Shown piece by piece: positions 13,090-63,246 of a DNA stretch of 64,000 nucleotides (position 1 is its first letter; the number at the start of each line of letters is the position of its first letter). The notes beneath the pieces were generated by a model, which worked only from the letters and a program-made list of their open reading frames with translations, was not told where the DNA came from and ran no database searches. Source of the stretch: Streptomyces sp. NBC_00286 (GTDB lineage Bacteria > Actinomycetota > Actinomycetes > Streptomycetales > Streptomycetaceae); the NCBI RefSeq assembly GCF_036173125.1, contig NZ_CP108054.1, forward strand, positions 5,084,001-5,148,000, written 5' to 3'. Both the position numbers and the translations under genes were made by a program.

Positions 13090-13173
13090 TACGACAATGA
13101 GCGAGCGGAGCGAGCACGCAGCGGCGGTCCCCTGGGCGGACCCCGGCGCGCTCCCGACCGGAGGGTGGGCACC

Positions 13174-14754
13174 GTGCGGATGTACCCGGAGCCGACGGGC
13201 GAGGTGCGCATGAGTCTGTCACTGCGCTTCGCCGCCGGATCGCACAAAGGCATGATCCGCGAGGGCAATGAGGACTCCGGTTATGCCGGTCCGCGCCTGC
13301 TCGCGATCGCCGACGGGATGGGCGGCCAGGCCGCCGGTGAGGTCGCCAGTTCCGAGGTGATCTCCACCATCGTCGCACTCGACGACGACGTGCCGGGTTC
13401 CGACATCCTGACCTCGCTGGGCACGGCCGTGCAGCGCGCCAACGACCAGCTTCGGCTGATGGTCGAGGAGGACCCCCAGCTCGAGGGCATGGGGACGACC
13501 CTCACGGCACTGCTGTGGACCGGGCAGCGGCTCGGTCTCGTGCATGTCGGCGACTCCCGTGCGTACCTGCTGCGGGACGGCGTGCTGACGCAGATCACCC
13601 AGGACCACACCTGGGTGCAGCGGCTCGTCGACGAGGGACGTATCACCGAGGACGAGGCCACCACGCACCCGCAGCGCTCGCTGCTGATGCGTGCGCTGGG
13701 CAGCGGCGACCATGTCGAGCCGGATCTGTCGATCCGTGAAGTCCGAGCAGGCGACCGGTACTTGATCTGCTCCGACGGTCTGTCGGGGGTGGTCAGCCAC
13801 CAGACGATGGAGGACACTCTCGCCAGCTACCAGGGCCCGCAGGAGACCGTGCAGCAGCTGATCGAGCTCGCGCTGCGCGGCGGCGGCCCGGACAACATCA
13901 CGGTGATCGTGGCCGACGTACTCGACATCGACGGTGGGGACACCCTCGCGGGGCAGATGTCCGACATCCCGGTCGTCGTGGGCGCGGTCGCCGAGAACCA
14001 GCAGCAGCAGTTGCACGACGACGGCACGATGCAGACGCCCGCGGGCCGCGCCTCCAGCCTCGGCCGTCCCGCGCCCTCGGGGGGCGGCGGCGAGTTCGGC
14101 CCGCCCGGCAGCGGCGACACGACGGGATACGTACCGACGGACGGCTTCGGCGACTACACCGAGGACGACTTCGTCAAGCCGCGCCGCGGACGCAAGTGGC
14201 TGAAGAGATCCCTCTACGGCGTGCTCGCGCTCGCCGTCATCGGCGGCGGGCTGTACGGCGGTTACCGCTGGACACAGACGCAGTACTACGTCGGCACCAA
14301 GGGCGAGCACGTCGCGCTGTACCGCGGTATCAGCCAGGATCTGGCCTGGGTTTCGCTGTCGAAGGTGGAAAAGGACCACCCCGAGATCGAACTCAAGTAC
14401 CTGCCGCCGTATCAGCAGAAGCAGGTCGAGGCCACGATCGCCGAGGGCGGCCTCAGCGACGCCAGGTCGAAAATCGAGGAGTTGGCCACGCAGGCGTCAG
14501 CTTGCAAGAAGGACGCCGAACGCAGGCAGGCCGAGAGCCGTAATAACTCTCAGACAGGTGAAGGCGAAGCAGGCGGCACCACGGGAACCACAAGGACGTC
14601 CGTGGCGTCGAAGGCGACACCATCACCGACCCAGAGCCCGACCTCGCAGGCATCACCGTCCGCCGACCCGTCCCCCACCGCACCCACTCCCACACCCGGT
14701 CCCAGCCTCTCGGAGGAAGAGCAGAAGCTGGTCTCGCTGTGCGGTAAGCAGTAA
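13174..14754 (+). CDS. pstP: PP2C-family Ser/Thr phosphatase PstP
   Basis: A 526-aa protein. The N-terminal PP2C phosphatase domain carries the metal and catalytic motifs GNEDSGYAG, IADGMGGQAAGE, GDSRAYLLRDG and GGPDNIT. One membrane helix at about 346-366 leads to an outside domain with a Ser/Thr/Pro-rich tail. It reverses phosphorylation by PknB and is the cognate phosphatase of the operon. The GTG at 13174 follows GGAGGG; GTG 13165, ATG 13180 and ATG 13210 are in-frame alternatives. The 84-bp gap from fhaB carries an AGCGAGCGGAGCGAGC motif of unknown role. Confidence 0.95.
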   Translation: MRMYPEPTGEVRMSLSLRFAAGSHKGMIREGNEDSGYAGPRLLAIADGMGGQAAGEVASSEVISTIVALDDDVPGSDILTSLGTAVQRANDQLRLMVEEDPQLEGMGTTLTALLWTGQRLGLVHVGDSRAYLLRDGVLTQITQDHTWVQRLVDEGRITEDEATTHPQRSLLMRALGSGDHVEPDLSIREVRAGDRYLICSDGLSGVVSHQTMEDTLASYQGPQETVQQLIELALRGGGPDNITVIVADVLDIDGGDTLAGQMSDIPVVVGAVAENQQQQLHDDGTMQTPAGRASSLGRPAPSGGGGEFGPPGSGDTTGYVPTDGFGDYTEDDFVKPRRGRKWLKRSLYGVLALAVIGGGLYGGYRWTQTQYYVGTKGEHVALYRGISQDLAWVSLSKVEKDHPEIELKYLPPYQQKQVEATIAEGGLSDARSKIEELATQASACKKDAERRQAESRNNSQTGEGEAGGTTGTTRTSVASKATPSPTQSPTSQASPSADPSPTAPTPTPGPSLSEEEQKLVSLCGKQ

Positions 14755-17873: not shown

Positions 17874-19907
17874 ATGGAAGAGCCGCGTCGCCTCGGCGGC
17901 CGGTACGAGCTGGGCCAGGTGCTCGGCCGTGGTGGCATGGCGGAGGTACATCTCGCCCATGACACACGGCTCGGCCGCACCGTGGCGGTGAAGACGCTGC
18001 GCGCGGACCTCGCGCGCGACCCGTCCTTCCAGGCCCGGTTCCGCCGGGAGGCCCAGTCGGCCGCCTCGCTCAACCATCCCGCGATCGTCGCCGTGTACGA
18101 CACGGGTGAGGACTACATCGAGGGCATCTCCATCCCGTACATCGTGATGGAGTACGTCGACGGGTCCACGCTGCGCGAGCTGCTGCACTCCGGGCGCAAA
18201 CTGCTGCCCGAGCGCGCCATGGAGATGACCATCGGCATCCTCCAGGCCCTCGAGTACTCACACCGCAACCAGATCGTCCACCGCGACATCAAGCCGGCGA
18301 ACGTCATGCTGACGCGCAACGGCCAGGTCAAGGTCATGGACTTCGGCATCGCCCGCGCCATGGGCGACTCCGGCATGACGATGACGCAGACCGCCGCGGT
18401 CATCGGCACCGCCCAGTACCTCTCACCGGAGCAGGCCAAGGGCGAGCAGGTCGACGCCCGGTCCGACCTGTACTCCACCGGCTGCCTGCTCTACGAGCTG
18501 CTGACGGTCCGGCCGCCCTTCGTGGGCGACTCCCCGGTCTCCGTCGCGTACCAGCACGTACGCGAGGAGCCGCAGCCGCCGAGCAACTTCGACCCCGAGA
18601 TCACGCCCGAGATGGACGCCATCGTCCTGAAGGCCCTGGTCAAGGACCCGGACTACCGCTACCAGTCCGCCGACGAGATGCGCGTCGACATCGAGGCCTG
18701 CCTCGACGGCCAGCCCGTCGCGGCCACCGCGGCTATGGGCTCCGTCGGCTACGGCGGCTACCCCGACGACAAGCCGACCACCGCCCTGCGCCCCACCCCC
18801 GGCGGCCAGCAGACGTCCATGCTCCCCCCGATGAACCCGGACGACGGCGGCTACGGCTTCGACGGAGGCGACCGCCGCCGCCCGAAGAAGAGCAACGCCT
18901 CTACGATCCTCCTGGTCGTCGCGGGCATCCTGGTCCTGGTCGGCGCGGTCCTGATCGGCCGGTGGGTGTTCAGCTCGACGGGCGGTGCGGGCGACGAGTC
19001 GTTCCCGGCACCCAACTTCGTCAACCGGACCTTGCCGGACGCCAGAGACATGGCGAAGAACGTCGACTTGAAGGTCGCGACGAAGGAACAGCCTTGCGAT
19101 GACACCCCGAAGGGCAGTGTCTGCGACCAGACCCCGAAGGCGAAGGACCCGGTCAACAAGGGCGACACGGTCACGCTGACGGTGTCGACGGGGGCGCCGA
19201 AGATCGCTGTGCCGGACGTCAAGAATCTGCCCTTCGAGAAGGCTGAGGCCACGCTCACGGAGAAGGGCTTCGATGTCCAGAGGAAGACCGAGGAGTCGGA
19301 CCGGACTGCCGGCATCGTCCTCGCCCAGGATCCGGAAGGCGGCTCGGAGGAGGAGAAGGGCTCGACCGTCACCCTGACCGTCGCCAAGGAGCAGGAGCAG
19401 GAAACCGTTCCGGACGTCACGGGCAGGACCTGTGACGAGGCCAAGGCCCAGATGGAGGCCAACAACCTCACCGGCGTCTGCGTCGACGTGGAGACGGACG
19501 ACGACAACCTGGTCGGCAAGGTCATCGCCACCGACCCCGAGGCCAACTCCCAGGCCGATCCGAACTCCACGGTGAACATCCAGATCGGCAAGGAAGCCGA
19601 GGACGAGGAGAAGGTCCAGGTCCCGCAGGTGGTCGGCCGGACCGTGGGCCAGGCCAAGCAGATCCTGAACCAGGCCGGCTTCACGAACATCCAGTTCCAG
19701 CCGGGCGCCGACCAGAGCGACACCGCGCTCGTCCAGGACCAGGACCCGGACCCGGGCCAGCAGGTCGACGACCCGGCCGGCACAACGATCACCCTCAACA
19801 CCATCGGCTTCAACAACAACGGCGGCAACAACAACGGCGGCGGAGACAACGGAGGCGGCGGCATATTCGGCGGCGTCAACGGCGCCTCCGCCCGCACCGA
19901 GGACTGA
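17874..19907 (+). CDS. pknB: PASTA-domain Ser/Thr protein kinase PknB
   Basis: A 677-aa transmembrane kinase. The cytoplasmic catalytic domain (about 10-275) has GRGGMAEV, the VAVK lysine at 40, HRDIKPANV with catalytic Asp138, and DFGIARA. One membrane helix lies near 343-366. Four extracytoplasmic PASTA repeats follow (about 378-650), which sense muropeptides or lipid II. The tail is Asn/Gly-rich. It phosphorylates FHA partners and envelope proteins. It ends 33 bp before a large palindromic terminator. Mycobacteria also carry pknA here; it is absent. Confidence 0.97.
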   Translation: MEEPRRLGGRYELGQVLGRGGMAEVHLAHDTRLGRTVAVKTLRADLARDPSFQARFRREAQSAASLNHPAIVAVYDTGEDYIEGISIPYIVMEYVDGSTLRELLHSGRKLLPERAMEMTIGILQALEYSHRNQIVHRDIKPANVMLTRNGQVKVMDFGIARAMGDSGMTMTQTAAVIGTAQYLSPEQAKGEQVDARSDLYSTGCLLYELLTVRPPFVGDSPVSVAYQHVREEPQPPSNFDPEITPEMDAIVLKALVKDPDYRYQSADEMRVDIEACLDGQPVAATAAMGSVGYGGYPDDKPTTALRPTPGGQQTSMLPPMNPDDGGYGFDGGDRRRPKKSNASTILLVVAGILVLVGAVLIGRWVFSSTGGAGDESFPAPNFVNRTLPDARDMAKNVDLKVATKEQPCDDTPKGSVCDQTPKAKDPVNKGDTVTLTVSTGAPKIAVPDVKNLPFEKAEATLTEKGFDVQRKTEESDRTAGIVLAQDPEGGSEEEKGSTVTLTVAKEQEQETVPDVTGRTCDEAKAQMEANNLTGVCVDVETDDDNLVGKVIATDPEANSQADPNSTVNIQIGKEAEDEEKVQVPQVVGRTVGQAKQILNQAGFTNIQFQPGADQSDTALVQDQDPDPGQQVDDPAGTTITLNTIGFNNNGGNNNGGGDNGGGGIFGGVNGASARTED

Positions 19908-56726: not shown

Positions 56727-58487
56727 TCAGCTGGTCACCTTGATGTCCGCTACTCGGCCACGGTAGTTACCCTCGTCGGTCAGCGGCAGTTCGGTCAGCC
56801 AGATCAAGAGATAGCGGGTCTCGACGGACTCGTCGGGCTTGAGCACTCCGGTCGTACCGGATCCTTGGGCGACCTTGGAGAAGGCATTAAAGGATGGGGG
56901 CTCCGCGCCCGCTTCGCCGGAGGCGGCTCGGAGCTCGACGGACGTGTCGCCCACAAAGGAGACGGTCACCTTCCCGACCTGCTGGACCTTGCCGAGGTCG
57001 AGAATGACGCCCACGCCCGACTTCAGACGACCGAAGTCGGCGCTCGTGTAGAAGCTCGTCTCCCAGTACGTGCCCGGACTGCTGTCGTGGGCCTTCTCTA
57101 TGTCCTCCGGATTCTCGGATCCGTCGGCGCCGAACGGGTCGAAGGCGCGGGCACCCTGGATGGCGATCGGCTTGCTGGCCGGCTTCTTCGCACCCTTGTC
57201 GTTGTCGTCCGTCGTCTGCGTCTTGTCGGTGTCGTCGGACTTCCCACGCTCCATGAGGGCGTCTGCCAACTGCCAACTGCCAAGGCCCAGCGCGGCGATG
57301 AGCAACGCGGACACACCCCACTTGAGGGCCTTGCCGGTACGGCTCTGCAACGGGGGCGGAGGCGACGGCACCGGCTGCGTGACGCCGGACCCCGGTGCCT
57401 GACGCCCGTACGAGCCTTGCTGGTACGTGGTGCGCTGGTAGTCCGGCGGCCCGGTGAACGCGGGCTCGGGCGGGCGGATGCGCGGCATCTCGCCGATCGC
57501 CTTCACCAGCTCTTCCGGCGTGGTGCACGGCGGTTCCTGGCGGGAGGCCGTAGCACCGTCGTTGACGAGTGCGCGCATCGCGAGTTCCGCCAGACCACGG
57601 TGCACTCCGGCGCGCACCTGGTCGGGCGCGATGAGCCCGACGCCCTTCGGCAGCCCGGAGAGGCCGTATGCGTCGTTCTCATACGGCCACCGCTGGGTGA
57701 GGGCGGCGTACAGCAGCGCGCCGATCCCTTCAGTGTCGGTGCGCTGGGGGGTGTCGGAGCTGATGCCGCGCAGCGCGGCGTTCACGGCGAGCCCGCGGAT
57801 ACGCCACTGACCGGACGAGGAGCGCAGCACCGCGCCCGGGGTCAGCCGCAGATGCGCCAGCCCTTCGCGGTGCGCGGCCGCCATCGCCTGGGAGACCTGA
57901 CTGACCATCTGATACGCGTCGTGCACCTCCAGCGGGCCGGCGGCTAGAAGCGTCGTCAGTTCTGTGGAGTCGGGCAGCCATTCCTGCACCACGTAGACCA
58001 GGTCGTTCTCCTCGACCGCGTCCAGCACTTGGACGAAGCGGGGATCGCCCAGGAGGGCGGCGGAACGGGCCGCCGCCAGGACGGAGCGCGCTCGCGGATG
58101 GTCTGCGGGCAGTAGGTGCACGCCGACGGCACGACGCAGCTTCTCGTCCACGGCACGCCAACTACTGAAACCGTCCAGACGGGTGACGCATTCTTCGAGC
58201 CGGTAGCGTCTGGCGAGCTTGTGGCCGCTGTGCAACTCGGGCGGTGAGGTCCTGTCGGGGCTCTCGTCCCCGCCGCTCCCCTGTGCCTCTTCGCTCTCCG
58301 AGATTTCCGTGTCCCGCTCCCGGTTCTGGGCCACCCCGTCGGCCGTGGACTGGTCCGCCTTGGCGGTCAGCGGCTCATCACCGCTGTTGTCTGCCACGTC
58401 GACGGCAGCCGTGCTCCGTTCCGCCACCGTCGTTCCTGCCTCCCCATCCGTTGCCCGCTGTCCGACGCCAAAGCCAATTGTGCCCAC
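56727..58487 (-). CDS. Membrane pseudokinase with extracytoplasmic discoidin-like domain (split MviN module)
   Basis: A 586-aa protein. An acidic N-terminus (1-85) is followed by a kinase-fold domain (about 90-330). The catalytic residues are gone: no glycine-rich loop, no VAIK lysine (VGVHLLPAD), HLRLTPGAV where HRDxKPxN is expected, and no DFG. One membrane helix (about 390-410) leads to a C-terminal beta domain (WETSFYTSADFGRLKSGVGV onward) of F5/8-type binding fold. In mycobacteria the same two domains are fused to MurJ as MviN and bind FhaA when phosphorylated. The GTG at 58487 starts 57 bp after murJ. Confidence 0.85.
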   Translation of the reverse strand: MGTIGFGVGQRATDGEAGTTVAERSTAAVDVADNSGDEPLTAKADQSTADGVAQNRERDTEISESEEAQGSGGDESPDRTSPPELHSGHKLARRYRLEECVTRLDGFSSWRAVDEKLRRAVGVHLLPADHPRARSVLAAARSAALLGDPRFVQVLDAVEENDLVYVVQEWLPDSTELTTLLAAGPLEVHDAYQMVSQVSQAMAAAHREGLAHLRLTPGAVLRSSSGQWRIRGLAVNAALRGISSDTPQRTDTEGIGALLYAALTQRWPYENDAYGLSGLPKGVGLIAPDQVRAGVHRGLAELAMRALVNDGATASRQEPPCTTPEELVKAIGEMPRIRPPEPAFTGPPDYQRTTYQQGSYGRQAPGSGVTQPVPSPPPPLQSRTGKALKWGVSALLIAALGLGSWQLADALMERGKSDDTDKTQTTDDNDKGAKKPASKPIAIQGARAFDPFGADGSENPEDIEKAHDSSPGTYWETSFYTSADFGRLKSGVGVILDLGKVQQVGKVTVSFVGDTSVELRAASGEAGAEPPSFNAFSKVAQGSGTTGVLKPDESVETRYLLIWLTELPLTDEGNYRGRVADIKVTS

Positions 58488-58544
58488 AGTCCACCGCTAT
58501 GCACGACACACGGTCCCGGACGATGGTTGTGCGCGTACCCCGCT

Positions 58545-60791
58545 TCAGCGCCCGAGGCGCCCGCGGACCATGCCGACCATTCCGTTCAGTTCCTCGATGC
58601 GCATACGCCGAGCCGCGACGAAGAAGACGCCGAGCAGGGCGATGCCCCCGCCGAGGAGGGCGGCCAGGGAGCCGAGGACACCCTGCCCCAGCCCCTGGGT
58701 GATTCCGTAACAGGCCGCGGCGGCCAGCAGCGCCGCCGGTACCGAGGCGATGCCGAGCCGGGCGTACGTACGCAGGACGCGAGCTCCGTCCAAGTCACCG
58801 CCCAGCCTCTTGCGCAGCCTCTGCCAGGCCACGCCCACGCCGATCGCGTACGCGAGACCGTAGGACGCGGCCATGCCCGCCACCGCCCAGAGGGGCGGCA
58901 GAAGGATGTAGCAGAGCGCCGAGGCGCTCGCGTTGACGGCGGCCACAATGACCGTGTTGTAGAAGGGAGTCCGGGTGTCCTCGTACGCGTAGAAGGCGCG
59001 TAGCACGACGTATTGCACGGAGTACGGGATGAGGCCGAGCCCGAAGGCCATCAGCATGTAACCCATCTTCGTGGCCGCGTCGGTGCCGGAGGAGCCGAAG
59101 ATCAGGGTGCACATCGGGACGCCGAGTGCGACGAAGCCGAAGGCGATCGGCACGATCGCGACGGCCGTGGTGCGCAGGCCCTGGGAGATGTCGTCGCGGA
59201 CGGCACCCGCATCGCTTTCGGCGGCCGAACGCGAGAGTCTCGGCAACAGGGCAGCCATCAGCGAGACGGTGATGATGGCCTGCGGGAGTCCCCAGATGAG
59301 CTGAGCGTTGGCGTAGGCGCTGTAGCCCGTTCCGGGGGTTCCCGTGTCCGTGACCGCAGCGGTGGCCAGCTGGGTGACGACAAGGACGCCCGCCTGGTTG
59401 GCGAGGACGAACAGGATCGTCCACTTGGCGAGCATCGCCGTCTTGCCGAGGCCGTTGCCCTTCCAGTCGAAGCGCAGCCGCAGCCGGAACCCAGTTTCGC
59501 GCAGGTACGGGATCATCGCCAGGGCCTGGACGACAAGGCCGAGCAGGACACCGATACCGAGCAGCCGCTGGCCCTCCGGCGGGATGTTCCCCGCGGTCAT
59601 CCCGGAGTTCGCCGACGTACCGTACACCCAGAGGAACATGCCGAGCGTCACGATGATGACGATGTTGTTGAGGACCGGAGTCCACATCATCGCGCCGAAC
59701 TTGCCGCGGGCGTTGAGGATCTGGCCCATCACCACATGGATGCCCATGAAGAAGATCGAGGGCAGGAAGTAGCGGGTGAAGGTGATGCCAACCTCGTTGG
59801 CTGCGGCGTCATTGGCCACCGGCACCGACAGCATGCTGACCAGGAGCGGTGCGGCGAACATCGCGAGCAGGGTCAGCGCGCCGAGCGCCACCATGACAAG
59901 GGTCAGCAGACGGTTCGCATAGGCCTCACCCCCGTCGTCGTCCTCCTTCATGGCGCGCACGAGCTGCGGTACGAAGACGGAGTTGAGGCCGCCTCCCACC
60001 GTCAGGATGTAGATCATCGTCGGCAGCTGGTACGTGACCTGGAAGGTGTCGCCCAGGAGGGCGGTGCCCAGTGCGGCGACGATCAGCGCGGACCGGATGA
60101 AGCCCGTGAGGCGGGACACCATCGTGCCCGCCGCCATGACCGCGCTCGACTTCAGCAGACTCGACGCGCGGCCCGCAGACTTCTGCGGCGCGGCCGTGGG
60201 CGCCGACGCGGGCGCAGGCGGCGGAGACTGAGGGGCCGCGGGAGCCGGCTCGGGCGTGGGGGACGGCACACCAGGCGGAGAAGACACACCGGGCGAACCC
60301 GCAGGGGGATACGCGCCGCCCTGCTGCTGGTCACGGAAGAGATACGCGAAGGCATCAGGCTCGTGGCGCTGCTCGCCGGCCTGGGTCACCAGGTCGTCCA
60401 CGCCCACGAACTGGGTCGTACGGGCGTCGTCACCGTAGGGAAGGTGCTGCGTCAGGCCGTCTGGCTCGGGCGCCGGGGTCTGCGCCCATACACGTGGATC
60501 GGGAGCGTGCGGCGGCTGCGGCGGCTGGGCGTAGAGCTGCTGCGGCGGGGGGTATGTGCCGGGCGGTGGCGGGGGATGCGCGGCGCGGTCGTACAACGCC
60601 TCGTCGACCGGATCCTGGGTGGCGCGATCCCGAACCCCGTAGGGATCCTGTCCGTAGGCGTCCTGGAGGTACGCGTCGGCGGGGGGCTGTGGCGGCACCT
60701 GTCCGGGCTCCGGCGGTCCCTGCGGCGGGTCGTCGGGGTAGCCGGAGCCCCCCGCGCCCTGACCGCGGTCACCGTCGTACGGCGCGTTCAT
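58545..60791 (-). CDS. murJ: Lipid II flippase MurJ (MviN), lacking the fused pseudokinase
   Basis: A 748-aa protein. About 215 residues of Pro/Gln/Tyr-rich disordered N-terminus precede a 14-helix MOP-family transporter. Family motifs include VMAAGTMVSRLTGFIRSALI and TVGGGLNSVFVPQLVRAM. It moves lipid II across the membrane for peptidoglycan synthesis. Unlike mycobacterial MviN it ends right after the transporter (MRIEELNGMVGMVRGRLGR), with the pseudokinase encoded next door. Confidence 0.95.
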   Translation of the reverse strand: MNAPYDGDRGQGAGGSGYPDDPPQGPPEPGQVPPQPPADAYLQDAYGQDPYGVRDRATQDPVDEALYDRAAHPPPPPGTYPPPQQLYAQPPQPPHAPDPRVWAQTPAPEPDGLTQHLPYGDDARTTQFVGVDDLVTQAGEQRHEPDAFAYLFRDQQQGGAYPPAGSPGVSSPPGVPSPTPEPAPAAPQSPPPAPASAPTAAPQKSAGRASSLLKSSAVMAAGTMVSRLTGFIRSALIVAALGTALLGDTFQVTYQLPTMIYILTVGGGLNSVFVPQLVRAMKEDDDGGEAYANRLLTLVMVALGALTLLAMFAAPLLVSMLSVPVANDAAANEVGITFTRYFLPSIFFMGIHVVMGQILNARGKFGAMMWTPVLNNIVIIVTLGMFLWVYGTSANSGMTAGNIPPEGQRLLGIGVLLGLVVQALAMIPYLRETGFRLRLRFDWKGNGLGKTAMLAKWTILFVLANQAGVLVVTQLATAAVTDTGTPGTGYSAYANAQLIWGLPQAIITVSLMAALLPRLSRSAAESDAGAVRDDISQGLRTTAVAIVPIAFGFVALGVPMCTLIFGSSGTDAATKMGYMLMAFGLGLIPYSVQYVVLRAFYAYEDTRTPFYNTVIVAAVNASASALCYILLPPLWAVAGMAASYGLAYAIGVGVAWQRLRKRLGGDLDGARVLRTYARLGIASVPAALLAAAACYGITQGLGQGVLGSLAALLGGGIALLGVFFVAARRMRIEELNGMVGMVRGRLGR

Positions 60792-60837: not shown

Positions 60838-63246
60838 TCAACGGTCCACTCTCTCACCCGTGCCGGACGGGTCGGTGCTTTCCGGTGCGGTGTCCGGTGA
60901 AGGGTCACTCGGCTGCTCCGGGTCGTCTTCCCTGGATCCCACTGGCGACGCCAACGCGGATTCCGCATCGGACCTCGGCCCCGACTCCGGGTGGAACGCC
61001 GCTTCACGACCAGCCTCGGCGTCGTCCTCAGCGCCGTCGTCCGGCCCCTCCTCGGCCCGCCTGGCGGCCGCGCGCTTGCGCTGGGTGTACATCCGGAACC
61101 CGGCGAGCACGAGCAGCAGCACACCGCCGGCGATGACGAGCATCACTGTGGGGGTGATCTCGGTGACGCTCACGTCGAACGTGATTTCCTCGCCATACGG
61201 TTGGCCGTCCTCCGTGTAGAGCTGGGCGGTCACCGCGTACCGGCCGTTGGCCCGGCCGTTGGCGGTGAACTTAACCGACTCGCTGTGCCCGCCCGACACC
61301 TCCACCCGCTGTTCCCAGTAGGCACGCTCACGCTCACCGATGCTCAGGCGCGACGGATGCTTCGACGTCAGGCGAAGCACCAGATGGTCGACGCCCTGGA
61401 CGAGGTTGTTCTGCACGGTGATCGGAATCGTGGCGCTGCGGCCCGACAGCTTCGCCTCGGACTTTTTGATCAGTGCGACCTGCTCGGTGAGCTCGTCGAT
61501 ATACGCATCCACGCCATAGCGGTACACGACTTCCTCGGCTTCATGACCGCGCCAGGACGTGGACATCGCCCGGTTCAGGGCACGCCCGAAGGGGGTGATC
61601 ACCCGGTCCTCCTCGGTGAGGATCACCCGGAATTTGTTGATCTTCCGCTGAATCTCCTCGACATGCTCGAAGGTTTTCGGCGGCAGTTCCTGCTTGCTGA
61701 GCGAGGAGGGGTACTCCGACTCCGAGGGGACCCGCGTGGTGGCGCCGGGGTCGGGCTTGGCCTCGGTGGCCGCGGACAGCTCCGCCGACTCCGACCAGTT
61801 CGCGCCCTGGAGGGCTGTGAGCGCCTGCGCCATCTCCTGGGCTTGGCTGGCTGACGGCATGCGCTGCGGGGCGACCACGATGCTGCGCTGCTTCCCAGGC
61901 TGCTGCAGGTTGATCATCAAGGTCTGGGCGAGGAATTCCTGCACGGCGAGCGTGGAGTTGCCGGCCACCGCCATGTCGCCCTGGAACGCCGTCGACAGGC
62001 GGGCGTCCGCGACCACCGCCGTCGTGCCGCCGCCGATGGGCCGGGCAGCACTGGGGGTGTACGACAGACCGCCGGTCTCCTGGAGGCTGTCACTGCGGGA
62101 GATCACCTTGTCGGCGCCGGCGGAGGTGGCGACCTTGACGATCGACGGGTCGATCGCTCCATTCGCGGGCCAGGCGTAGTCCGTGCTCGGCGTTACATGG
62201 AGGATCGACTCCACCGTGGTGGCGGCCACCTCTGTGGCGTCCTTGAGGTGGCTCAGCGACCCGGCGATCTTCGTGCCCTTGTGAGCCAACGACGCCAGAT
62301 CTGGGTCGGCGAAGGGGAGGGCGACGACTTCCTTGCCCTCGACCGCCTTCTCCAGCTCGGCGAGCCACTGCTTGGCGACCTCCTTGTGGGTGCCCGCTGT
62401 GGTGGTGTCGGTGCCGGTCCGGATCTCGTAGCCGCCCACCATCGCGACCACGGAGGCCAAGAGGTCCGGATCGATCACCCACGTGACGTCCAGCTCCTTG
62501 CCGAGCGTGACGAGCTGCTGCAGCCGACCGCCGGGCGCGAGCTCCGCGGCCAGGTCGTCGTCCTTGAAGACGGGAGTCTGCTGCTCGTTCGAACCCGTCT
62601 CGGCCGTCATATGGGGGGTGGAGATCAGGGGCCAGAGGTACGTCGTCCTGCTCTTCCTCTCCGCAGCGTCAGGCTGCCAGGGCAGGAAGGTCCGCTCGAT
62701 ACCGAGAATCCGCTCGTACGGCTGGGCGGCGGTCTCCCCGGTGAGCGTGACCCCGAGCTGGTAGACGCCGTCGGCACCGAGTTCCAGCTCGTCCACAGGG
62801 ACGGAGAGGCTGAAGCCTTGCGGGACGCCCGGCGCCAGCTTGGCGAAATCCTGCACGTATGAGCCGTCGACCTCGGTGCCCGCATAAGGGTTGTTCTTCG
62901 CGGCCGTGTCGATCGACGAGCGGCCGTTCATCGTCGGTCCCACGCGCAGACCGAGCTGGGCGTCCGTGACCGACTGCTTGCCGTTGTTCGTGATCCGGCC
63001 CGAGACGGTGAGCGTGTCGCCGTCCGAGGGAACGCTCGGGCTGAGTGAGTGCAGGGAGATGTCAACCGTTTTGGAGCCCGTGGCGGCGGCCACGGCGGTG
63101 CGCTCGGCGGCGTCCGCGGACGGCGAGGCGGGCAGCTGGAGAAGGCCGGCCAGCAGAGGCGCTCCGGCGAGCAGTACTCCGGTGCGCCGCAGCCACCGGC
63201 GGGCAGGTGAGGCACTCGTCCCCTGGAAGTCTGCCGCCTGGGCCAC
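60838..63246 (-). CDS. DUF6049 family secreted membrane-anchored protein
   Basis: An 802-aa protein. A signal peptide (about 20-47) is followed by a large extracytoplasmic region with Ig-like and alpha/beta domains, then one membrane helix (VMLVIAGGVLLLVLAGF, about 705-722) and an acidic cytoplasmic tail. Its place upstream of murJ matches mycobacterial Rv3909. The GTG at 63246 is used. Function is unknown; coexpression with the flippase suggests a cell-wall role. Confidence 0.85.
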   Translation of the reverse strand: MAQAADFQGTSASPARRWLRRTGVLLAGAPLLAGLLQLPASPSADAAERTAVAAATGSKTVDISLHSLSPSVPSDGDTLTVSGRITNNGKQSVTDAQLGLRVGPTMNGRSSIDTAAKNNPYAGTEVDGSYVQDFAKLAPGVPQGFSLSVPVDELELGADGVYQLGVTLTGETAAQPYERILGIERTFLPWQPDAAERKSRTTYLWPLISTPHMTAETGSNEQQTPVFKDDDLAAELAPGGRLQQLVTLGKELDVTWVIDPDLLASVVAMVGGYEIRTGTDTTTAGTHKEVAKQWLAELEKAVEGKEVVALPFADPDLASLAHKGTKIAGSLSHLKDATEVAATTVESILHVTPSTDYAWPANGAIDPSIVKVATSAGADKVISRSDSLQETGGLSYTPSAARPIGGGTTAVVADARLSTAFQGDMAVAGNSTLAVQEFLAQTLMINLQQPGKQRSIVVAPQRMPSASQAQEMAQALTALQGANWSESAELSAATEAKPDPGATTRVPSESEYPSSLSKQELPPKTFEHVEEIQRKINKFRVILTEEDRVITPFGRALNRAMSTSWRGHEAEEVVYRYGVDAYIDELTEQVALIKKSEAKLSGRSATIPITVQNNLVQGVDHLVLRLTSKHPSRLSIGERERAYWEQRVEVSGGHSESVKFTANGRANGRYAVTAQLYTEDGQPYGEEITFDVSVTEITPTVMLVIAGGVLLLVLAGFRMYTQRKRAAARRAEEGPDDGAEDDAEAGREAAFHPESGPRSDAESALASPVGSREDDPEQPSDPSPDTAPESTDPSGTGERVDR

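Follow-up and report, generated by a model that had tools for sequence, protein, structure and literature searches.

A transmembrane pseudokinase encoded separately beside murJ in Streptomyces and its relation to mycobacterial MviN

Introduction

How does the pseudokinase which in Mycobacterium forms part of the MurJ polypeptide come to be a protein of its own in Streptomyces, and what might it do there? The question is raised by a stretch of 64,000 nucleotides from Streptomyces sp. NBC_00286 (NZ_CP108054.1, positions 5,084,001 to 5,148,000; hereafter "the window") in which murJ, the gene of the lipid II flippase, is followed by a separate gene for a transmembrane pseudokinase. In mycobacterial MviN (Rv3910; C-terminal half in PDB entries 3OTV, 3OUK, 3OUN and 3UQC) the two are fused, and the MviN pseudokinase has so far been described as a fused domain. 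A search of a limited collection of literature found no paper describing a split MurJ-pseudokinase pair, and a search of PMC3123327 for the S. coelicolor genes gave nothing. A first-pass annotation of the window had taken the locus for a special case, a "split MviN" with an FhaA-binding pseudokinase acting as a separate regulatory subunit. We report here that the split form is common in the class of Streptomyces and that the pseudokinase may have originated from an active receptor kinase.

Results and Discussion

A kinase fold without catalytic residues beside murJ

The window MurJ matches TIGR01695 with 509.4 bits (cut-off 235.55) along residues 211-739 and PF03023 at 2e-122; it lacks a C-terminal extension and stops where its transporter domain stops, just as the first-pass annotation had described. 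The pseudokinase follows as an unfused open reading frame (ORF; Table 1), which confirms the observation of a separate pseudokinase gene beside murJ. Its product probably comprises 566 residues and starts at a GTG at 58427, 117 bases past the murJ stop, since 98 of the 120 pseudokinase homologues among the matches listed are 562-567 residues long and a GGAGG precedes this GTG. Among these matches, its nearest named homologues are all Streptomyces proteins.

Aligned with PknB of the same genome, the window protein shows VGVH at the VAIK position, Ala at that of the alpha-C Glu, HLR at HRD and GLA at DFG, which bears out the earlier description of a kinase fold that has lost the VAIK Lys, HRD and DFG. 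The activation loop is short, the DFG position and the next conserved Asp being 20 residues apart compared to 43 in PknB. The VAIK Lys is replaced by His in 27/27 Streptomyces, and throughout the class no row (0/110) combines Lys, HRD Asp and DFG Asp, nor does any (0/110) contain the alpha-C Glu. Some lineages retain part of these residues, e.g. Lys, Asn and DFG Asp in loci L025, L057, L064 and L072, a pattern which, judged from the alignment, would fit a gradual decay. Among the aromatic residues of the ATP pocket, the W789 position is occupied by Trp in the window protein and is nearly invariant in profile A1, while the F724 position is occupied by Ser.

The kinase fold is followed by a linker, a membrane helix and, as had also been proposed, a discoidin/CBM32-like outer beta-domain. 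The helix was placed by the DSSP assignment of the structural model; a hydropathy scan set at 1.6 overlooked it in several Streptomyces. In the fold test the outer domain adopts a CBM32 / F5-8 type C-like beta-sandwich, with 14-17% identity to the CBM32 / F5-8 type C modules 4zxe, 4zz5 and 7d2a, and sugar binding is putative here. In the Pfam search, the outer domain of L132 reaches 37.3 bits over a cut-off of 28.2, those of L133, L143 and L167 stay below it, and that of the window scores 15.0 bits (E 0.027). A profile built from 39 of 210 rows (7 row pairs are repeats) matches 205 of the 210; the other five are L052, three f65 loci and L068, which runs past the end of the fetched DNA.

Within the linker, a Thr-Tyr motif of the YQxTTYQ type, a candidate phosphosite, is found by a loose pattern in 57/59 Streptomycetaceae. 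The f78 loci L041, L042, L053, L054, L060 and L062 (Frankia and relatives) possess very long Gly/Tyr/Arg/Asp-rich linkers before the membrane helix and share a TGLM[ST] motif right after the kinase fold.

The split form is common and probably ancestral

The fused-versus-split survey which the first-pass annotation had proposed was carried out on two draws of genomes. In the class draw, TIGR01695 found MurJ in 115/118 genomes, 101 of which were read: 93 loci, and 8 from the genus Streptomyces including the window. Fourteen were left out: seven whose contig ends soon after murJ (G247, G251, G258, G265, G280, G301, G304), six whose genus or family was already covered (G282, G297, G310, G314, G321, G330) and one with a partial MurJ match (G307). 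In the order draw, MurJ was found at the strict threshold in 35/50 genomes, the other 15 giving no match, and 20 of the loci listed were taken. Altogether 120 loci were fetched with 5 kb downstream of murJ and scanned with the pseudokinase profile. The 119 genomes counted consist of the 93 class loci and 26 Streptomyces genomes, some of them from the order draw, the window itself standing outside this number. The second MurJ found in G359 (L121) was set aside; L092, with a weak partial hit, was scored as having none, as was L048 of G312, where the MurJ match itself is only weak.

In 95 of the 119 genomes the pseudokinase is a separate same-strand gene, in 14 it lies inside the MurJ ORF, and 10 have none. 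By family (n=36), 29 are split, three are fused and four are neither. All fused loci belong to f3 (6/6), f79 (7/7) and f75 (1/1). We read f3 as Mycobacteriaceae, its locus L101 matching the Rv3910 structures at 3.8e-150; f79 includes Jiangella ureilytica and J. rhizosphaerae (Jiangellaceae), and f75 is a metagenome-assembled genome (MAG) of Sporichthyaceae. Two further families are represented by Planomonospora and Microbispora (f77) and by Frankia and Pseudofrankia (f78). A second set of 80 named loci, 7 of which repeat loci of the first, comprises 73 split and 7 fused cases, the latter from Jiangella (3), Phytoactinopolyspora (2), Haloactinopolyspora (1) and the Sporichthyaceae MAG (1). The split arrangement is hence no special case of MviN.

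Trees were obtained by quick searches, with support from the Shimodaira-Hasegawa-like approximate likelihood ratio test only. In the kinase-domain tree the pseudokinases of the class form one group (99, starred), the active kinases standing outside. The combined tree of MurJ and pseudokinase (65 rows, 826 columns) sets the class apart from other classes with full support, places the fused Mycobacteriaceae beside the split form of f6 (99) and the fused Jiangellaceae beside the split Jiangellales MAG L134 (98), and implies three changes between the split and fused states. On these data a single origin of the fusion is rejected (p 3.4e-6 with LG+G4; approximately unbiased test p 5.8e-10 with LG+C20). 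For one fusion shared by the Jiangellaceae and the Sporichthyaceae MAG, p is 0.071 on MurJ plus pseudokinase and 0.572 on the kinase domain. To us these trees indicate that a split ancestor gave rise to fused forms at least twice, so that split is probably the ancestral state. Repeated fusion of the same pair of proteins is a classic hint of joint action. Since the same pair has been fused repeatedly here, a shared task of MurJ and the pseudokinase is suggested.

Relatives with intact catalytic residues in other classes

A full-protein profile search finds relatives across the phylum Actinomycetota. Among the matches listed, the relative stands directly after MurJ in 13/14 f9 genomes with both genes; it also adjoins MurJ in f20, f50, f54 and f60. 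In 14 loci of other classes, chosen because a kinase adjoins MurJ, Lys, alpha-C Glu and DFG Asp are each kept in 14/14 and HRD Asp in 11/14, the three lacking it being the f20 loci, and the outer domain is present in 14/14 (E 2.8e-25 to 9.9e-37). Five relatives located away from MurJ (L226-L230) keep Lys and DFG Asp in 5/5, HRD Asp in 4/5 and the outer domain in 5/5. Because these five share the layout without standing beside MurJ, the family is, as far as sequence comparison can tell, a wider one of receptor kinases in Actinomycetota extending beyond the MurJ pair. Against this background the pseudokinase seems to be the decayed form of a receptor kinase that faced the wall.

Its design recalls the PASTA kinases PknB and StkP, which share the Hanks-type fold, the character of a wall-facing membrane protein and the context of wall synthesis. 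In contrast, these are active, carry PASTA domains instead of a CBM32-like outer domain and, in the window, are not paired with MurJ.

Relation to MviN

By position, layout and outer domain, the window protein is the counterpart of the C-terminal half of MviN. With no mycobacterial rows among those used to build it, the outer-domain profile recovers the fused Mycobacteriaceae loci L091, L098 and L101 at 1.1e-30 to 3e-27. A kinase profile from 69 split rows gives 250-305 bits for Jiangellaceae and the MAG, compared to 152-210 bits for the active homologues from outside the class. The kinase tree nests the mycobacterial rows within the class group, at the end of a branch 2.0 changes per column long, and fast divergence after fusion would be the simplest reading of this distant kinase domain.

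Some features of MviN have no equivalent in the window. According to PMC6180346, the mycobacterial MurJ linker E541-F680 binds CwlM and is reported as essential, or possibly indispensable; the window MurJ has no such extension. MviN is the known member of the ActPs3 family as defined by O'Boyle 2025 (PMC12599244). Like the window protein, ActPs3 proteins show degraded VAIK, HRD and DFG motifs, a short activation loop and a C-terminal membrane segment. The members other than MviN are reported there to lack a carbohydrate-binding domain, whereas the outer-domain profile matches nearly all of our rows. The walls of Streptomyces and of Jiangella are not known to contain arabinogalactan. PMC10166564 (2023) confines the extended pseudokinase domain to organisms whose wall includes an arabinogalactan layer.

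A proposed role beside MurJ

The explanation which we prefer, with a probability of roughly one in two, is the following. The pseudokinase, a single-pass membrane protein, would work with the lipid II flippase MurJ. It would go back to a receptor Ser/Thr kinase that faced the wall and whose gene adjoined murJ; in the class of Streptomyces catalysis would have been lost and the kinase retained as a scaffold. The outer CBM32-like domain would most likely bind wall glycan near the flippase, while the dead kinase fold, together with a perhaps phosphorylated linker, may recruit or release cytosolic regulators that set the output of MurJ and thereby control lipid II flipping. murJ and the pseudokinase gene would have been fused separately in Mycobacteriaceae and in Jiangellaceae, remaining two proteins in Streptomyces. 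Of the earlier idea of a separate regulatory subunit, the separateness stands, the protein being encoded apart from MurJ, and association with MurJ is likely because of the conserved pairing and the repeated fusion; its proposed departure from MurJ is conjectural, and its FhaA-binding part is unsupported (see below).

A number of observations weigh against this explanation or parts of it. When the test is confined to the kinase domain, the data are compatible with one clade of all fused forms (p 0.29). The pseudokinase is absent beside MurJ in 10/119 genomes, including 3/3 loci read in f8, a family having FhaA. The pairing can break: in G214 some 225 kb separate the pseudokinase (L231, 3620878-3622449) from murJ. 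In the f65 loci L032, L034 and L039 (genomes of 1.0-1.7 Mb) the helix is kept and followed by 26-37 residues, the outer domain being missing. Among the matches listed, the best full-length relative stands away from MurJ in many further families of the phylum, f21, f25, f34 and f42 for instance, and the link to MurJ need be neither the sole nor the first role of the family.

A close kinship with MviN at the level of the kinase fold is likewise unsupported. A kinase profile without mycobacterial rows finds PknB at 4.8e-31 versus Rv3910 at 2.2e-19, the profile from 69 split rows gives PknB 149 bits versus 126-130 bits for six mycobacterial rows, and the window protein alone scores PknA and PknB above MviN. 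Profile A1 ranks Rv3910 (1.2e-62) over PknA (6.6e-41), partly by construction as it contains three f3 rows. Because the fair profiles rank PknB over Rv3910, the kinase sequence being no closer to the latter, we regard the protein as a counterpart of MviN and not as a member of ActPs3. Moreover, a tree that lets the mycobacterial rows branch apart from the class group cannot be rejected (p 0.47), and loss of catalysis may have happened repeatedly.

The FhaA circuit of mycobacteria

The first-pass annotation had envisaged the mycobacterial circuit with its genes separate: PknB phosphorylates the linker, FhaA docks on it and MurJ is restrained. As had been noted, FhaA, PknB and PstP are all encoded in the window, as their domain matches demonstrate; FhaA carries GRS, SRRH and STNG, which we take to be the canonical FHA motifs. 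The YQxTTYQ-type motif, too, would offer a Thr in nearly all Streptomycetaceae linkers. Another FhaA_N match occurs elsewhere in the same genome (G000:C1:367238-367534; 3.3e-21), and likewise in some other genomes of the genus.

The T947 site of MviN was located in 3UQC via the F724 and W789 numbering of PMC12599244 as the Thr of ADRTEV. This Thr is present in 6/6 fused Mycobacteriaceae. At the aligned column it is found in 0/27 Streptomyces, 0/15 other fused rows (3 repeats), 0/69 other split rows of the class and 0/14 rows of other classes, counts which speak to the homologous site only, as the linkers align poorly. Within 4 columns of it, a Thr occurs in 0/27, 0/15, 2/69 and 3/14 rows, respectively. 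A T-x-x-[ILVM] pattern is seen in 19/27 Streptomyces, 38/69 other split, 10/14 other-class and 2/15 other fused linkers; this pattern is common in long linkers and uninformative. FhaA docking at a T947-type site in Streptomyces was thus rejected, while docking on another linker Thr is possible. That such a site is lacking outside Mycobacteriaceae appears, from these alignments, to be a new observation.

FhaA_N is found in 105/118 genomes of the class and 217/246 of the phylum, also where MurJ has no adjoining pseudokinase; FhaA therefore occurs independently of the pseudokinase. In f85, FhaA is absent from 7/7 genomes and the pseudokinase from 2/2 loci read. In f8, FhaA is present in 3/3 and the pseudokinase in 0/3 loci read; a genome-wide search, made for G225 only, gave a best match (2.0e-50) which is not of full-length class type. 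Evidence for co-inheritance of the two is weak either way. For mycobacteria, PMC3989709 restates the FhaA model; PMC11898655 supports the association of FhaA with MviN but argues that FhaA promotes wall synthesis, so the sign of the FhaA effect is disputed. The absence of the T947 Thr from Streptomyces and from the fused rows outside Mycobacteriaceae, together with the spread of FhaA regardless of the pseudokinase, leads us to consider the mycobacterial circuit unlikely in Streptomyces.

Neighbouring genes

The coordinates of the features are compiled in Table 1. Downstream of the window pseudokinase stand an extracytoplasmic function (ECF) sigma factor gene and, after it, a gene whose product matches a zinc finger weakly (0.011, below cut-off). 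In 22 loci of the class, over 1200 bases lie between murJ and the opening of the pseudokinase ORF, and in 22/22 the gap contains an NlpC/P60 gene (L012, L015, L025, L026, L028, L029, L035, L037, L043, L044, L046, L050, L051, L055, L056, L057, L064, L065, L068, L071, L072 and L080; in L068 the match came from the second ORF tested). Some of these gaps contain one more ORF. In other classes, an NlpC/P60 gene lies in the gap of L221; for L220 and L224, the search against Pfam found no match to the ORFs tried from the gap.

These neighbours would suit a wall-stress receptor tied to the NlpC/P60 hydrolase or to the downstream ECF sigma factor and having no direct contact with MurJ. The window, however, has no NlpC/P60 gene between murJ and the pseudokinase gene, and it is MurJ, not the hydrolase or the sigma factor, to which the pseudokinase has been fused, which makes such a receptor rather improbable. 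Control of active PknB or PknA via kinase-kinase dimer contacts as the main function, with the adjacency to murJ reflecting only shared regulation, has equally poor prospects, as more than one fusion to MurJ indicates MurJ as the partner.

Table 1. Positions of the murJ-pseudokinase pair, its parts and related genes in the window
Feature	Position	Strand	Remarks
murJ, lipid II flippase, 748 aa	58545..60791	-	TIGR01695 and PF03023 matches
Transmembrane pseudokinase ORF, 586 aa	56727..58487	-	separate ORF after murJ, unfused
Pseudokinase gene, probable 566-aa form	56727..58427	-	GTG start, GGAGG upstream
Kinase-fold region without catalytic residues	57474..58226	-	ORF residues about 88-338
Juxtamembrane linker	57336..57473	-	model confidence mostly low; YQRTTYQ-type motif, no T947-type site
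Transmembrane helix	57252..57335	-	ORF residues about 385-412; DSSP of model
Outer domain, CBM32 / F5-8 type C-like beta-sandwich	56730..57182	-	
FhaA	11706..12560	+	FhaA_N and FHA domain; GRS, SRRH and STNG present
PstP-type PP2C phosphatase	13165..14754	+	NF033484, 231.4 bits, cut-off 230
PknB, PASTA Ser/Thr kinase	17874..19907	+	catalytic residues intact; NF033483, 724.9 bits
DUF6049 protein gene, directly upstream of murJ	60838-63246	-	PF19516, 5.1e-59

Conclusions

What is new here is the breadth of the split form, the occurrence of more than one fusion and the likely origin of the pseudokinase from an active receptor kinase beside murJ. Streptomyces and 29 of the 36 families read possess a split counterpart of the MviN pseudokinase, and Jiangellaceae have it in fused form; receptor kinase, pseudokinase and fused domain would form a series. 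As a tentative scenario, on which we would not yet rely, lipid II export in Actinomycetota was once under the control of a murJ-adjacent receptor kinase which sensed wall glycans with a CBM32-like domain and passed the signal on by phosphorylation. In the class of Streptomyces and Mycobacterium this kinase would have lost catalysis and turned into a ligand-gated MurJ scaffold that was joined to the flippase on at least two occasions, Thr947-FhaA docking being a late addition in Mycobacteriaceae. If this is true, the murJ-adjacent kinases that are still active in other classes would sense the wall and act on the flippase directly. With these homologues, a connection of wall sensing to lipid II export can be put to the test, and the two-gene form of Streptomyces, a harmless genus of the laboratory, allows the flippase and its presumed regulator to be studied apart.

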